Assembly (NCBI RefSeq): GCF_000341065.1
Contig: NZ_ANAX01000233.1
Span: 13,034 to 62,799, forward strand
DNA length: 49,766 nucleotides
Source: Nocardiopsis halotolerans DSM 44410
Lineage (GTDB): Bacteria; Actinomycetota; Actinomycetes; Streptosporangiales; Streptosporangiaceae
Direction: 5' to 3'
Position 1 is the stretch's first letter, and every line of letters begins with the position of its first letter. Positions 2,323 through 23,688 of this stretch are shown here, piece by piece. Made by a program: the position numbers and the translations under genes. A model generated the notes under the pieces. That model had not been told where the DNA came from, searched no databases, and saw only the letters and a program-made list of their open reading frames with translations.

Positions 2323-2469
2323 GAAGCTTCTCTCCCTCGTCGAAAGCCGGGTACCGGCCACGAGGCGGGTGAGAGCGGGCACACCGACGGACGCGCCGTG
2401 GGCGCGCACACCTGCCACCGCCCCCGGCCCTCCCTCGGGGCGCGGGACCACCGGCGGCACCGGTGCACC

Positions 2470-2712
2470 GCCGGGTGGAGGCAGGTCTTCGGACTCGGGG
2501 GCGCGGACGGTGCGGACACCGTTCCTGCCTACTGGCCGCCGCTTCCCGGTTTCCGACCCTTCCGACCGGATGACCAGTGCCTATGGCGACGTTCGTTCCC
2601 CCATACCGCTGCGGGGCAGTCCCGGATTCGCACCGGGTTCCCTCTTGCGACACGCTCCCGCCGCTCCGGGCGGGGCCCGGACCACGGGGTGGAGCATGTA
2701 CCTTCCACGCCT
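2470..2712 (-). promoter_or_regulatory. Cobalamin riboswitch in the metE leader
   Basis: On the minus strand, reading toward metE, the leader holds the conserved cobalamin aptamer parts in order. A GGGAAcccGGTGcgAATCC block followed by GGGACTGCCCCGCAGC lies at about 2607-2650. The B12 box, GAGTCCGAAGACCTGCC, is at 2480-2496. About 150 nt remain between the aptamer and the metE ATG, enough for an expression platform; GC-rich hairpins are possible there but I could not define a terminator. A TATACT hexamer at 2716-2721 (minus) could be the -10 box, without a clear -35. Outer boundaries are approximate. Confidence 0.93.
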
Positions 2713-2892
2713 GCGAGTATAGGGAGAGCCCCCTTTCGCCCCTGCATCCGGCATGCGGCTCCATGCGCCTGGCCGCGACAGGCGAACTCCTGTCCCCTGA
2801 CCGGCGTCACACCCGAATGAAGCGTTACGTGGGTGAGCTCCCCCTGGCTCCCCGCGGACGTTCGTCTGATCGATGAACGTGGAGAATCCCTG

Positions 2893-4503
2893 GTGAAGAA
2901 GCGCCCTGACCCCACCATGCGAGCGGACCACCCCCTGATCACCACCGTGGTGGCGCTGGTGGTCGTGGCGGGTCTGGTGTTGTTGGCGACCCGCTCGTCC
3001 GGCGAGGCCCCGCAGTCGGGTGGTGCCCCGGCCCCCGTGGAGGAGTCGCCGCCCCCGGCCTCCGGTGAGCCCCACGGGCTGACCGTGGTGGACGCGGCGG
3101 ACGTGGTGGGCGTCGAGGAGGCCGAACTCGCCTACGACGGGGGAATCGACGTCTCGGTGACCTACCCGGTCATCCCCAACGCCGCGCCGCTGACCGACTT
3201 CCTCGAGCGCGAGCTCACCGACGAGGTGCACGCCTTCGAGGCCGCCAACCCCGGCGCGGCCTCCTTCGAGGCGGAGTGGAACCTGACCGCGGCGGGCGAC
3301 GGCCTGCTCGGGGTCCGCATGACACGGACCGAGACCGACTCCGAGGGTTCCAGGGAGGGGTACACCACCTACTGGTACGACACCGCGACCGCGGCGCACC
3401 ATCCCTCCAGCGCCCTGGTCGCCGGGCAGCGGGAACTGGAGGAGCTCAACGGCCTGGTGCGCGAGAGCGTCGGAAACGGGGACGGTGACGGGAGCGCCGC
3501 GAACCCCGACACCATCCACCCGATCAGCTCCCTGTACGACTCGGTGGGCTTCAACCCGGACGGGGACCTGGTGGTGGAGTTCGACGCCGGACAGGTCGCC
3601 CCGGCGGGCGAGGGCCGCATGTACGCGGTGATCGACGCCGAGGAGGCCGAGGGGCTGCTGTCCGACCTGGGACGGCACGTGCGCGACGTCGCGACCGTGG
3701 GCGTCGAGGACTTCGCCATCGCCGCCCCGCCCGAGGCCGACAAGGACGGCCAGGACGAGGGCGGCCCCGTGCCGGGTGGACCGACCGCGGTGAACGAGGA
3801 CGTCGACTGCTCCGCCCCCGAGACCAGGTGCGTGGCCCTGACCTACGACGACGGCCCCGGCGCGCGCACCCCCGAGCTGTTGGACGCCCTGGCCGAGTAC
3901 GACGCGCGGGCCACCTTCTTCGTCACCGGCCGCCCCGTCATGGAGCACCCGCACACCGTGCGGCGCGCCTACGCCGAGGGGCACGAGATCGCCAACCACA
4001 CCCTGGACCACTCCGACCTGGCCGGTCTGGGCGAGGGCGGCGTGCGCCACGAACTGGACGTGGTGCAGGCGCTGGTGTACCGCGAGACGGGGCACACCAT
4101 GAACCTGATGCGACCGCCGTACGGCTCCACCGACGAGGGCGTGGCGTCGGTGACCGCGAACATGGGCCTGGCGCAGATCCTGTGGAGCGTGGACCCCCTG
4201 GACTGGAAGGACCGTGACGCCTCGGTCGTCCACGACCGGGTGATGGCGGGCGCCTCGGAGGGGGCGATCATCCTCATGCACGACATCCACGGGACGACCA
4301 TCGACGCCTCCCGCACGATCATCCGTGAACTGGACGCGCGCGGGTACACCATGGTCACGGTGTCCCAGCTGCTCGGAACCACGACACCCGGTGAGGTCTA
4401 CGTCGACGGGGTCCCCGACGACGCCCCCGAGGAGGGCACGGAGCCGTCCGAGGACGACGAACCCTCCGGCACGCCCTCCGACGAGGCTTCCGAGGAGGCC
4501 TGA
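2893..4503 (+). CDS. PdaC-like membrane-anchored polysaccharide deacetylase (copy 1)
   Basis: Probably removes acetyl groups from a cell-wall polysaccharide such as peptidoglycan. From the GTG at 2893 (GGAG about 10 nt upstream) the protein has 536 aa: a single N-terminal membrane segment (about residues 15-35), a low-complexity linker, a DUF3298/RsiV-like domain (about 60-270), and a NodB deacetylase domain (about 308-500). NodB motifs are present: TYDDGPG near 316 (catalytic Asp and metal Asp), NHTLDHSDL with the metal histidines, RPPYGS, and LMHDIHGTT near the end. The C-terminus is an acidic Glu/Asp/Ser/Pro tail. This domain order matches B. subtilis PdaC. The frame stays open to a GTG at 2833, but that start lacks support. 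A paralogue follows in tandem. Confidence 0.88.
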   Translation: MKKRPDPTMRADHPLITTVVALVVVAGLVLLATRSSGEAPQSGGAPAPVEESPPPASGEPHGLTVVDAADVVGVEEAELAYDGGIDVSVTYPVIPNAAPLTDFLERELTDEVHAFEAANPGAASFEAEWNLTAAGDGLLGVRMTRTETDSEGSREGYTTYWYDTATAAHHPSSALVAGQRELEELNGLVRESVGNGDGDGSAANPDTIHPISSLYDSVGFNPDGDLVVEFDAGQVAPAGEGRMYAVIDAEEAEGLLSDLGRHVRDVATVGVEDFAIAAPPEADKDGQDEGGPVPGGPTAVNEDVDCSAPETRCVALTYDDGPGARTPELLDALAEYDARATFFVTGRPVMEHPHTVRRAYAEGHEIANHTLDHSDLAGLGEGGVRHELDVVQALVYRETGHTMNLMRPPYGSTDEGVASVTANMGLAQILWSVDPLDWKDRDASVVHDRVMAGASEGAIILMHDIHGTTIDASRTIIRELDARGYTMVTVSQLLGTTTPGEVYVDGVPDDAPEEGTEPSEDDEPSGTPSDEASEEA

Positions 4504-4579
4504 GGGCGCGGCGTCCCGGCGGTGTCGACCGGCCTGGAGGAGAATGTCGCCGGGAGCGCGTCGGAACCGATCCCGGGCA

Positions 4580-4635
4580 CGTTCCCCGTCCCGTGACGGT
4601 GACCACATGTGGTCACCGTCACGGGACGGGGAACG
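4580..4635. repeat. Perfect 56-bp palindrome between the two deacetylase genes
   Basis: The sequence is perfectly self-complementary from 4580 to 4635, with 28-nt arms meeting at CACATGTG (centre between 4607 and 4608). There is no mismatch and no spacer; I checked each pair. It starts 76 nt after the stop of deacetylase copy 1 and ends 62 nt before the start of copy 2. As RNA it would form a hairpin of about 26 bp with a CAUG loop, so it could end transcription of copy 1. It could equally be a dimeric protein-binding site in the promoter region of copy 2. No T-run follows. Confidence 0.95.
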
Positions 4636-4697
4636 GCGTCCTCTATGTTGCTCCCAGCAGCAGCCGCGTCAGCTGTACTGAGGGATGAGGGAGCCCG

Positions 4698-6269
4698 GTG
4701 TTGTCGTCGACTCGAATCCACCCGAGCAGGACCGTCCCCGCCCCGGGCGGTGGGACACGTCGGCCGTGGAGAGGCGGACCGTGGTGGCCGGGAGCCGCAC
4801 TGGTGGCGCTCGTCCTGTCCCTGACCGCGTGCGGCGACGAGGGGATCGTCGGGATGGGCGAGGACCAGACGCTCATGACGGTGGTCCTGGAGCAGCCGGG
4901 CGACGGGGTCACCGAGTGGCGCGGTGACGCGGGCGACTTCGAGGACCATCCGTACCAGCCCGAGGGCCTGCGGATCGACGCGGGCTACCCGGTGTTCGAG
5001 GGGGCCGACGCCTTCGCGGAGGAGCTCGCCGCCCAGGTGGACCAGGAGGTGCGGGACTACCGGGGGGCCAGCCGCGAACCGGTGAACCTGAGCATCGACT
5101 GGCAGGTGGTCGCCGCGGGGAACGGGGTGCTGGGCGTGCGCCTGGTGCGTACCGAGGAGGACTTCCAGGGACTGCGCCAGGCCTACGGGACGTACTGGTA
5201 CGACGTGTCCACCGGCCACACCGCCTACTCCACGGAGCTGCTGGCCGACGACGCGGCGTTGGAGGAACTCGACGGGATCGTCCGCGAGGAGTTCGCCGAC
5301 GACGAGCAGGTGGACGTGCGGGGCCTGCACCCGGTGATGCGCACGTACGACTCGATGGGGTTCAACACCGACGGGGACCTGGTGGTGGAGTTCGACGACG
5401 GACACCTGTCCCCGACCGTGGAGGGCCATCCTCCCTCGTCCGAGCCGGGCCGCAAGGTCGCGGTGGTCCCCGCCGAGGAGGCCGCCCCGCTGCTGTCCGA
5501 CCTGGGCGAGCGGGCGCGGGAGGCGGCCCTGGCGGAGGAGCCCGTACTGGCGGTGGAGGAACCCGCCACCGAACCCGAGACCACGCCCGAACCCGCACCG
5601 GAGGTGCCCGGGGTGGTCGAGGCCGGCGACCCGGAACTGGACTGTTCCGAGGACAGGTGCGTCGCGCTGACCTTCGACGACGGCCCGAACGAGACGACAC
5701 CGGCGCTGCTGGACCTGCTGGCCGAGGAGGAGGTGTCGGCCACCTTCTTCCTCAACGGCCATCCGACCCTGACCCGGCCCGGCGTGCTGCGGCGCGCCTA
5801 CGCCGAGGGGCACGAGATCGGCAGCCACAACCACCTGCACGAGCACATGCCGAAGAAGTTCGACGAGAAGGAGCTGGTCCACCAGGTGGCCGCGGTGAGC
5901 GCGATGGTGCGCCGCCAGACGGGGCACACCGTGGAACTGTTCCGGCCGCCGTTCGGCGACAGCTCCCCGGAGGTGCTGGCGGAGATCGGCAGGCAGGGCA
6001 TGGCCGAGATCCTGTGGAGCCAGGACAGCGAGGACTGGACCGGCCTGAGCCGCGACGAGATCGTGGAAAGCGTGGTGGAGCAGGCCGAGCCGGGCGCGGT
6101 GGTGCTGCTGCACGACACCATGGCACCGACCCTGGAGGCGGTTCCGGAGATCATCGAGCGGTTGCGCGAGGACGGGTACGCGTTCGCGACCGTCAGCCAG
6201 GTCTACGACGGCCCGGAGCCCGGCGAGAGCTACCCGCCCGAGGGGCTGACCTCACCCGTCGGCTCCTGA
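4698..6269 (+). CDS. PdaC-like polysaccharide deacetylase lipoprotein (copy 2)
   Basis: A 523-aa paralogue of the preceding deacetylase. It starts at GTG 4698 with GGGAG 4 nt upstream. An Arg-rich N-terminus is followed by a hydrophobic stretch ending in the lipobox LSLTAC (Cys45), so it is probably a lipoprotein rather than a transmembrane anchor. A DUF3298/RsiV-like domain follows (about 60-280), then a NodB domain from about residue 320: TFDDGPN (325), GSHNHLHEHM with metal histidines, RPPFGD, and LLHDTMAP. YGTYWYDVSTG and GFNTDGDLVVEFDDGH also occur, slightly altered, in copy 1, pointing to tandem duplication. The different anchors suggest the two enzymes sit differently in the envelope or act on different polymers (inference). 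Confidence 0.88.
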   Translation: MLSSTRIHPSRTVPAPGGGTRRPWRGGPWWPGAALVALVLSLTACGDEGIVGMGEDQTLMTVVLEQPGDGVTEWRGDAGDFEDHPYQPEGLRIDAGYPVFEGADAFAEELAAQVDQEVRDYRGASREPVNLSIDWQVVAAGNGVLGVRLVRTEEDFQGLRQAYGTYWYDVSTGHTAYSTELLADDAALEELDGIVREEFADDEQVDVRGLHPVMRTYDSMGFNTDGDLVVEFDDGHLSPTVEGHPPSSEPGRKVAVVPAEEAAPLLSDLGERAREAALAEEPVLAVEEPATEPETTPEPAPEVPGVVEAGDPELDCSEDRCVALTFDDGPNETTPALLDLLAEEEVSATFFLNGHPTLTRPGVLRRAYAEGHEIGSHNHLHEHMPKKFDEKELVHQVAAVSAMVRRQTGHTVELFRPPFGDSSPEVLAEIGRQGMAEILWSQDSEDWTGLSRDEIVESVVEQAEPGAVVLLHDTMAPTLEAVPEIIERLREDGYAFATVSQVYDGPEPGESYPPEGLTSPVGS

Positions 6270-6320
6270 GGCCACGGGGCCCGGCTAAGACCGCGGGCCG
6301 CTGGTGGCCCGGCACACGCG

Positions 6321-6356
6321 TCGGCGCCCGGCGGGGGCGTCCCCGCCCGGCGCCGA
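6321..6356. terminator. Hairpin terminator between convergent deacetylase and pyrD
   Basis: A 16-bp GC-rich inverted repeat with one mismatch (C6329/C6348) and a 4-nt loop lies between the stop of the second deacetylase (plus) and the stop of pyrD (minus). Its place between convergent genes fits a bidirectional terminator. No U-tract follows, which is usual in high-GC actinobacteria. Confidence 0.7.
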
Positions 6357-6363
6357 ACCGGTC

Positions 6364-7511
<1,148 letters not shown>

Positions 7512-23025: not shown

Positions 23026-23688
23026 TCAGGTGGCGGAGGTGTCCACGAGTCCGGCCTCGTGGGCGAGGATGGCCGCCTGCACCCTGTTACGCATCTCCAG
23101 ACGGTTGAGGATGGCGCTGACGTAACTCTTGACGGTGCCCTCCACCAGGAACAGCCGTTCGGCGATGTCGGCGTTGGACAGTCCGGCGCCCACCAGCGCC
23201 AGCACCTCGCGCTCGCGCTGGGTGAGCACCTCGATCCGTGCGGCGGCCGCCGCCTCCCGGGTGGCCCGGGCCCCGCCGAACTGGGCGATCACCTGCCGCG
23301 CCACCTGGGGTGACAGGTAGGCGCCGCCGTCGGCGACCGCGTGCACCCCGGTGATCAGCTCTCGCGGGTCTCCCGCCTTGAGCAGGAAGCCGCTCGCACC
23401 GCCGCTGAGCGCCTGGGAGATGTAGCTGTCCTCGCCGAAGGTGGTGAGGATGACCACGGCGGTGGCGGGGGCGATCCGGCGGATCTCGGTCGTGGCCGCG
23501 AGGCCGTCCATCCGGGGCATGCGGATGTCCAGCAGCGCCACGTCGGGGCGGTGGGAGAGCACCAGGTCCACGGCCTCGCGGCCGTCGGCGGCCTCGGCCA
23601 CCACCTCGATCTCCGGGTCGCTGCGCACGATCGCCCGTACCCCGGCGCGGATCATCGCCTCGTCGTCGGCGAGCAGCACCCTGATCAC
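23026..23688 (-). CDS. LuxR/NarL-family response regulator
   Basis: 220 aa from GTG 23688 with GGGGGAG upstream. Receiver domain: VLLADDEAMIRAG (acidic pair), phospho-acceptor Asp in VALLDIRMPRMDG (near 54), ILTTFGED with Thr, and LLKAG with the conserved Lys. C-terminal LuxR HTH: LTQREREVLALVGAGLSNADIAERLFLVEGTVKSY (about 150-185). It begins 41 nt after the stop of the histidine kinase on the same strand, and the two form a two-component system whose signal is unknown. Confidence 0.95.
   Translation of the reverse strand: MIRVLLADDEAMIRAGVRAIVRSDPEIEVVAEAADGREAVDLVLSHRPDVALLDIRMPRMDGLAATTEIRRIAPATAVVILTTFGEDSYISQALSGGASGFLLKAGDPRELITGVHAVADGGAYLSPQVARQVIAQFGGARATREAAAAARIEVLTQREREVLALVGAGLSNADIAERLFLVEGTVKSYVSAILNRLEMRNRVQAAILAHEAGLVDTSAT

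Follow-up and report, generated by a model that had tools for sequence, protein, structure and literature searches.

Several described systems bear on the locus analyzed here. Among the operators of dimeric regulators, CRP-like proteins have the site TGTGA-N6-TCACA and response regulators of the NarL/LuxR type have 16-bp sites, as exemplified by the MacR site TGAGTAC-N2-GTACTCA. Hairpin terminators rich in GC and poor in U are usual in high-GC actinobacteria. Outside Dietzia, sites of the cell-wall regulator MtrA are direct repeats. For Dietzia, a section of one report gives a 21-nt TCG-rich consensus (PMC9599347). Concerning Streptomyces, passages of two reports describe transcript ends carrying long, stable, U-poor hairpins (PMC12207403, PMC8914203), and those of the first mention covariation in the hairpins as well. 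Finally, template switching is proposed, in the relevant part of another report, as a process that creates and maintains perfect stems (PMC8794818).

We analyzed a stretch of 49,766 bases from Nocardiopsis halotolerans (72% GC; hereafter, the window) in which two paralogous polysaccharide deacetylase genes, about 40% identical to each other, follow one another in the same direction and are separated by a 194-bp gap. A perfect palindrome lies in this gap. The features of the locus are the following:

2833..4503, plus strand: gene 1, polysaccharide deacetylase (PF01522)
4580..4635, no strand: the entire palindrome, perfect and loopless, with arms of 28 nt
4580..4607 and 4608..4635: left and right halves of the palindrome, 0 nt between them (inverted-repeat search)
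4580..4599, no strand: left outer arm, optional, covaries with the right outer arm
4600..4615, no strand: putative operator core TGACCACATGTGGTCA, half-sites TGWCC-N6-GGWCA, kept in 36 of the 38 loci with gene 2
4616..4635, no strand: right outer arm, variable in sequence, with a fixed length from the core to the -10-like box
4644..4651, plus strand: invariant -10-like box TATGTT(GC) of gene 2, its first base being the 37th after the palindrome centre
4646..4659, no strand: weak second dyad TGTTG-n4-CAGCA, which was noticed in the alignment and shares bases with the -10-like box
4687..4693, plus strand: putative ribosome-binding site GAGGGAG of gene 2, identified by eye
4698..6269, plus strand: gene 2, the deacetylase paralogue (PF01522), whose N terminus looks like that of a lipoprotein (LTAC, by eye); the proposed regulated gene

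Upstream of gene 1 and in the opposite direction there is a metE-like gene (16-2460) for a cobalamin-independent methionine synthase, preceded by a cobalamin riboswitch (2483-2643, minus strand; RF00174, 66.7 bits).

A preliminary description of this DNA had reported a perfect loopless palindrome of 56 bp between paralogous deacetylases, and both counts are confirmed: by the inverted-repeat search the arms of 28 + 28 nt are 100% complementary with no loop, and PF01522 products are encoded on both sides. At the base composition of the window, 9.6e-11 loopless palindromes with an arm of at least 28 nt are expected, and the runner-up among the loopless perfect palindromes of the window has an arm of only 9 nt. 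The structure is nested in two layers, a conserved 16-bp core within labile outer arms, and the dyad GGTGACCACATGTGGTCACC is embedded in it at 4598-4617. No Rfam family was matched at the palindrome and no second copy was found in the 424-contig draft of the own genome. A mobile-element origin was ruled out by this single copy together with the synteny of the locus across the genus. The palindrome had also been held to be atypical for a terminator. This stands concerning the lack of a U tract, but not concerning exceptional length, because long loopless palindromes are a regular class in the genus, as judged by the inverted-repeat counts of the relative G008: 800 kb of its genome contain 99 perfect inverted repeats with an arm of at least 12 nt and a loop of 0 to 10 (12 loopless), and 44 with an arm of at least 15 nt (8 loopless, longest arm 24).

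The region was matched in 39 of 40 Nocardiopsis genomes, the own one included, and gene 2 is absent from one of these 39 loci (G004). Within the gap between the two genes the core reads CCACATGTGG or CCACTTGTGG / CCGCATGCGG / CCACATGCGG in 36 of the 38 loci with gene 2, so the absence from all relatives with the gene pair that the preliminary description had contemplated is not the case. Its centre is placed exactly 36 bp before an invariant TATSTTGC box in 35 of the 36 loci, and 37 bp before it in L025; the bases of the intervening stretch vary and its length is constant. The distance from the gene-1 stop to the palindrome centre, by contrast, ranges from 17 to 296 bp (L045, in which the gene-1 stop was not found, is omitted from this range). 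G004, without gene 2, shows no core and has a different hairpin behind gene 1; G025 lost the inner six bases and kept TGGCC-N6-GGTCA at unchanged spacing; and G033 lost the core and the -10-like box together (the last two by eye). Because of the fixed spacing to the box, the variable distance to gene 1 and the pattern of these three genomes, we assign the core, on sequence grounds, to the promoter of gene 2, with which it travels rather than with gene 1. Five core pairs are the same in every sequence while outer pairs show substitutions in both arms; the third core pair is A-T in some sequences and T-A in others.

Concerning the rest of this promoter, a sigma-70 consensus scan of positions 2400-6600 gave no match, and gene 2 has a poor -35 region, located in the variable arm. 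The weak second dyad at 4646-4659 is conserved as TGTTG-n4-CARCA, several relatives reading TGTTG-n4-CAACA. In one locus (L037 of G016), about 280 extra bases starting with TTGACCTCCTCCCCACGGCTGAAGCCGGGGGATTC interrupt the gene-2 leader directly after the -10-like box, that is, after CTATGTTGCTCCC; this start resembles an IS200/IS605-type end. Gene 2 itself looks genus-specific, because the family-level matches outside the genus resemble gene 1 more (20 of 30 loci examined in this comparison).

A second promoter carries the same type of site. With at most one mismatch, TGWCCACATGTGGWCA was present in 37 of the 40 genomes of the genus, and the reversed-pattern control in 4 of 40. Apart from the deacetylase site, a recurrent group of these motifs precedes a gene with a VanY product (PF02557) of the peptidoglycan carboxypeptidase type, and this VanY-type gene is present in all 40 genomes. 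Its promoter matches TGNCC-N6-GGNCR in 38 of them and narrowly fails to do so in the remaining two, and TGTAGTACGTTGC then follows the half-sites in nearly all; the site of the own genome (L236) is TGGCCGCATGTGGACA. In all 40 genomes the symmetric arm at vanY is of 8 nt or less and the long outer arms are absent. The distance from the operator to the -10-like box is 13 bp, as against 36 bp at gene 2. When the search was extended to the family, a promoter of the vanY type with at most 3 of 26 bases mismatched was found in 7 of 100 genomes, three in the genus and four in other genera (in these four the downstream genes were judged to be vanY-like by eye, on the basis of the one that was translated). 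The promoters of the other genera retain the half-sites TGTCC/GGACA or GTCC/GGAC(A/G) and differ in the middle six bases, and since the half-sites persist in this way, the recognized unit is probably TGWCC-N6-GGWCA.

The motif also occurs at other places. In a convergent era/iclR-type gap the same 18-bp core stands on a terminator-like hairpin in five genomes, and relatives have other tips. This gap contains loopless palindromes in L136-L140 (G009, G010, G013, G020 and G021) and L302-L304, with GTGACCACATGTGGTCAC at the apex in one genome group. We rejected them as a member of the regulon and attribute the match to chance or convergence, given the convergent genes and the different hairpin tips of the relatives; apparently, a terminator tip converged here on the operator sequence. 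The sequence TTTGTCCGCATGTGGYCA lies upstream of a gene for a CNNM/CBS/CorC membrane protein in L319 (G000:C142) and L332 (G008). In a scoring that covers 5 of 30 loci, the site was present in G000 and G008, had one mismatch in two loci from G012 and was absent from L345; this gene is a possible third target. A further candidate is an ORF without a Pfam match in L167 (G018) and L168 (G029), where TGACCACATGCGGTCA is found just after a promoter-like CTTTGTCTACGCT and before the ORF.

We also considered which regulator might read these sites. In the own genome a NarL/LuxR-type response regulator gene (L320, G000:C301) has TGGCCGCATGCGGTCA 139 bp upstream. This gene was found in 5 of 40 genomes (L320, L339-L343), with a site of the TGGCC-N6-GGYCA type upstream in all five, and possibly it is autoregulated through this sister motif. 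No comparable upstream site was identified for NarL/LuxR homologues at 29 other loci in four genomes, two of which have loose half-sites only. The gene of L320 was ruled out as the general regulator because only 5 of 40 genomes carry it. Another NarL-type regulator is encoded in the window at 23044-23682 on the minus strand.

The outer arms behave differently from the core. In a gap-free alignment of the 36 sequences with an exact core (the arm statistics omit three of the 39 gene-1 loci, L014, which has no gene 2, L023 and L038), 78.3% of the cells are paired, as against 67.6% after shuffling, and in 17 of the 24 pairs both members have changed. Covariation scores 0.268, as against 0.112 +/- 0.012 in shuffled and at most 0.109 in slid alignments. 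Complementarity between the two arms of one species is 0.747 at positions 9-18, 0.439 at 19-28 and 0.245, the chance level, at 29-40; the values across species at the same positions are 0.571, 0.358 and 0.251. The 28-nt arm of N. halotolerans is the longest among the 36 loci. When the loci were labelled as having long or short arms, the label required nine changes on a tree built from 38 gene-1 proteins, and the well-supported branches alone force nine. L023 and L038 are in this tree outside both label groups, and L010, L011 and L031 (the last with an arm of 15 and a mismatch at the centre) were scored as short by the labelling rule. We read the core as old and constant, and the arms as elements that come and go. 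Of the earlier proposal that the palindrome reflects recent origin or selection, the second part is supported for the core; a recent origin of the whole element is not supported, as the core is genus-wide and only the arm length is labile. The suggestion that the embedded dyad resembles an operator core has gained support from the conservation of the core, its fixed spacing and the covariation of the arms around invariant pairs.

A core-centred hairpin with an energy of -22 kcal/mol or below is predicted in 21 of the 36 loci and in none of the other 15; since these 15 manage without it, the arms seem dispensable. In N. halotolerans its predicted energy is -57.2 kcal/mol, with a mean of -12.0 in the shuffled sequences (15 shuffles each, which kept the mononucleotide content only; for L045 the end of gene 1 had to be assumed before folding). 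L018 and, more weakly, L041, both without a strong hairpin on the core, have a separate hairpin closer to gene 1, and the same is true of L038, which is without the core. A consensus scan of 2400-6600 found no canonical intrinsic terminator (a GC-rich stem followed by a T run). The stability of the hairpin and its location in gene 1's 3' region fit a U-poor terminator, yet such a terminator would be expected wherever gene 1 is present and at a spacing that depends on gene 1, and neither the 15 loci without the hairpin nor the range of 17-296 bp conforms to this.

One explanation would be that the palindrome is the gene-1 terminator and nothing else, a U-poor GC-rich hairpin in which the core is kept as a good hairpin tip. 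A strong covarying hairpin in 21 loci agrees with it, as do the abundance of perfect inverted repeats in G008, the separate hairpins of L018 and L038, where long arms on the core are missing, and the Streptomyces transcript ends, whose hairpins are, in the passages cited, the longest, the most stable and poor in U (PMC12207403, PMC8914203). Nevertheless, we consider it unlikely, because the five core pairs are invariant while the arms vary, whereas the era/iclR terminator tip does vary; because the position is tied to the -10-like box of gene 2 and not to the gene-1 stop; because 15 loci have no strong hairpin on the core; and because the core recurs, armless, in the vanY promoter. Far less credible is an assembly foldback, which the preliminary description had mentioned and for which the draft state of the own genome could be invoked. 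The same element is found at the same place, with species-specific arms, in independent genomes, including the assemblies of 1-4 contigs of G001, G006, G008, G010, G020, G030, G034 and G038, and for the element, if not for its exact arm length in this strain, this reduces an artefact to a negligible chance.

Another explanation concerns only the arms and is compatible with an operator core. They could be purely mutational, a symmetric operator seeding replication hairpins that template switching then extends and makes perfect again, with no selected function of the arms. The state changes on the tree, at least nine, and the 15 loci without a hairpin are in line with this, and in the group of L007, L008 and L010 the right arm is identical and the left arms differ, two of the three largely matching the right arm. 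The creation and maintenance of perfect stems by template switching is, moreover, what the relevant part of PMC8794818 proposes. However, the operators at vanY are just as symmetric in many genomes, and yet none of the 40 genomes has arms longer than 8 nt there; this lack of arm growth argues for a role of the place, the 3' end of gene 1, rather than of mutation alone. A purely mutational origin of the arms is possible, but we hold it to be somewhat doubtful.

The reading that we favour, and regard as probable, combines both layers: the core would be the operator of a dimeric regulator of gene 2 and vanY, and the labile arms would form a hairpin at the 3' end of gene 1. A dyad with sequence-specific conservation, a fixed place in the promoter and recurrence at promoters of genes of related function, the features of an operator, were all found. 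In this joint reading one dimeric transcription factor would bind the 16-bp dyad TGWCC-N6-GGWCA at the two promoters, and gene 2 and vanY would form a small cell-wall-remodelling regulon; from the enzyme families, the theme of the targets is likely cell-wall remodelling or envelope stress. If the box is taken as the -10 element and transcription starts near position 49 after the centre, simple arithmetic would place the centre of the gene-2 operator at about -48.5, just upstream of the poor -35 region, where a fixed spacing over variable sequence would suit a contact between the regulator and RNA polymerase, so that activation is slightly favoured. By the same arithmetic, the centre of the vanY operator would be near -25.5, in the spacer that separates the -35 from the -10 region, a position that would suit repression or a MerR-like geometry, and one regulator may both activate and repress. 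Several points speak against this joint reading: the best candidate class of regulator, the NarL/LuxR type, is represented with a similar upstream site in only 5 of 40 genomes; the distances of 36 and 13 bp fit no single activation geometry; the sequence of the core can come about as the tip of a hairpin too, as in the era/iclR gap of five genomes; and 15 of 36 loci have no strong hairpin on the core.

Around the putative operator, in the 3' region of gene 1, longer complementary arms would have repeatedly formed and decayed. With long arms, the gene-1 transcript would carry at its 3' end a highly stable hairpin poor in U that probably ends or protects it, and the arms may be kept perfect by selection on pairing, by template-switch repair of a quasi-palindrome, or by both. 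A tighter connection is conceivable, although we offer it as speculation: the same element would be the operator of gene 2 as DNA and the 3' hairpin of gene 1 as RNA, binding of the regulator would be coupled to termination or read-through of gene 1, and the operator would seed a palindrome that regrows. If this were true, the genus would record palindromes grown by template switching round a fixed symmetric seed at the deacetylase locus and not at vanY. The motif links two peptidoglycan-modifying enzymes in Nocardiopsis and provides a starting point toward a cell-wall regulator, and the 36 aligned natural alleles, with palindromes gained and lost round a constant core, offer a clean system in which to compare selection and template switching as what makes palindromes perfect.

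No published name for the operator motif was found in literature searches, in which a literal search for the half-sites gave primer noise, and as far as these searches go the motif is new. It resembles the operators of dimeric regulators, with half-sites of about 5 bp and a 6-bp spacer, in its 16-bp dyad, its fixed promoter position and its presence at more than one target promoter, and the NarL/LuxR sites in that a similar site stands upstream of a NarL-type gene in all five genomes that carry it. However, the half-site TGWCC matches none of the known dimeric operators that could be named, and in many species the operator is here the apex of a perfect palindrome with arms of 14-28 nt. The locus shares with the U-poor (I-shaped) actinobacterial terminators a stable GC-rich stem, the location in the 3' region of a gene, the lack of a T tract and covariation, and differs from them in that the palindrome is loopless at the DNA level, the 16-bp apex is invariant, the position is tied to the downstream promoter and the stem is dispensable in 15 of 36 loci. 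As in the template-switch products of quasipalindromes described in part of PMC8794818, arm changes restore perfect pairing, but the seed is here a conserved operator. Like the MtrA sites, in the portion of PMC9599347 that treats them, the motif would control genes of peptidoglycan hydrolysis and synthesis, whereas the Nocardiopsis motif is a strict dyad. An operator, a U-poor hairpin and a template-switch palindrome are each known, and it is their nesting in a single element that appears to be unusual.
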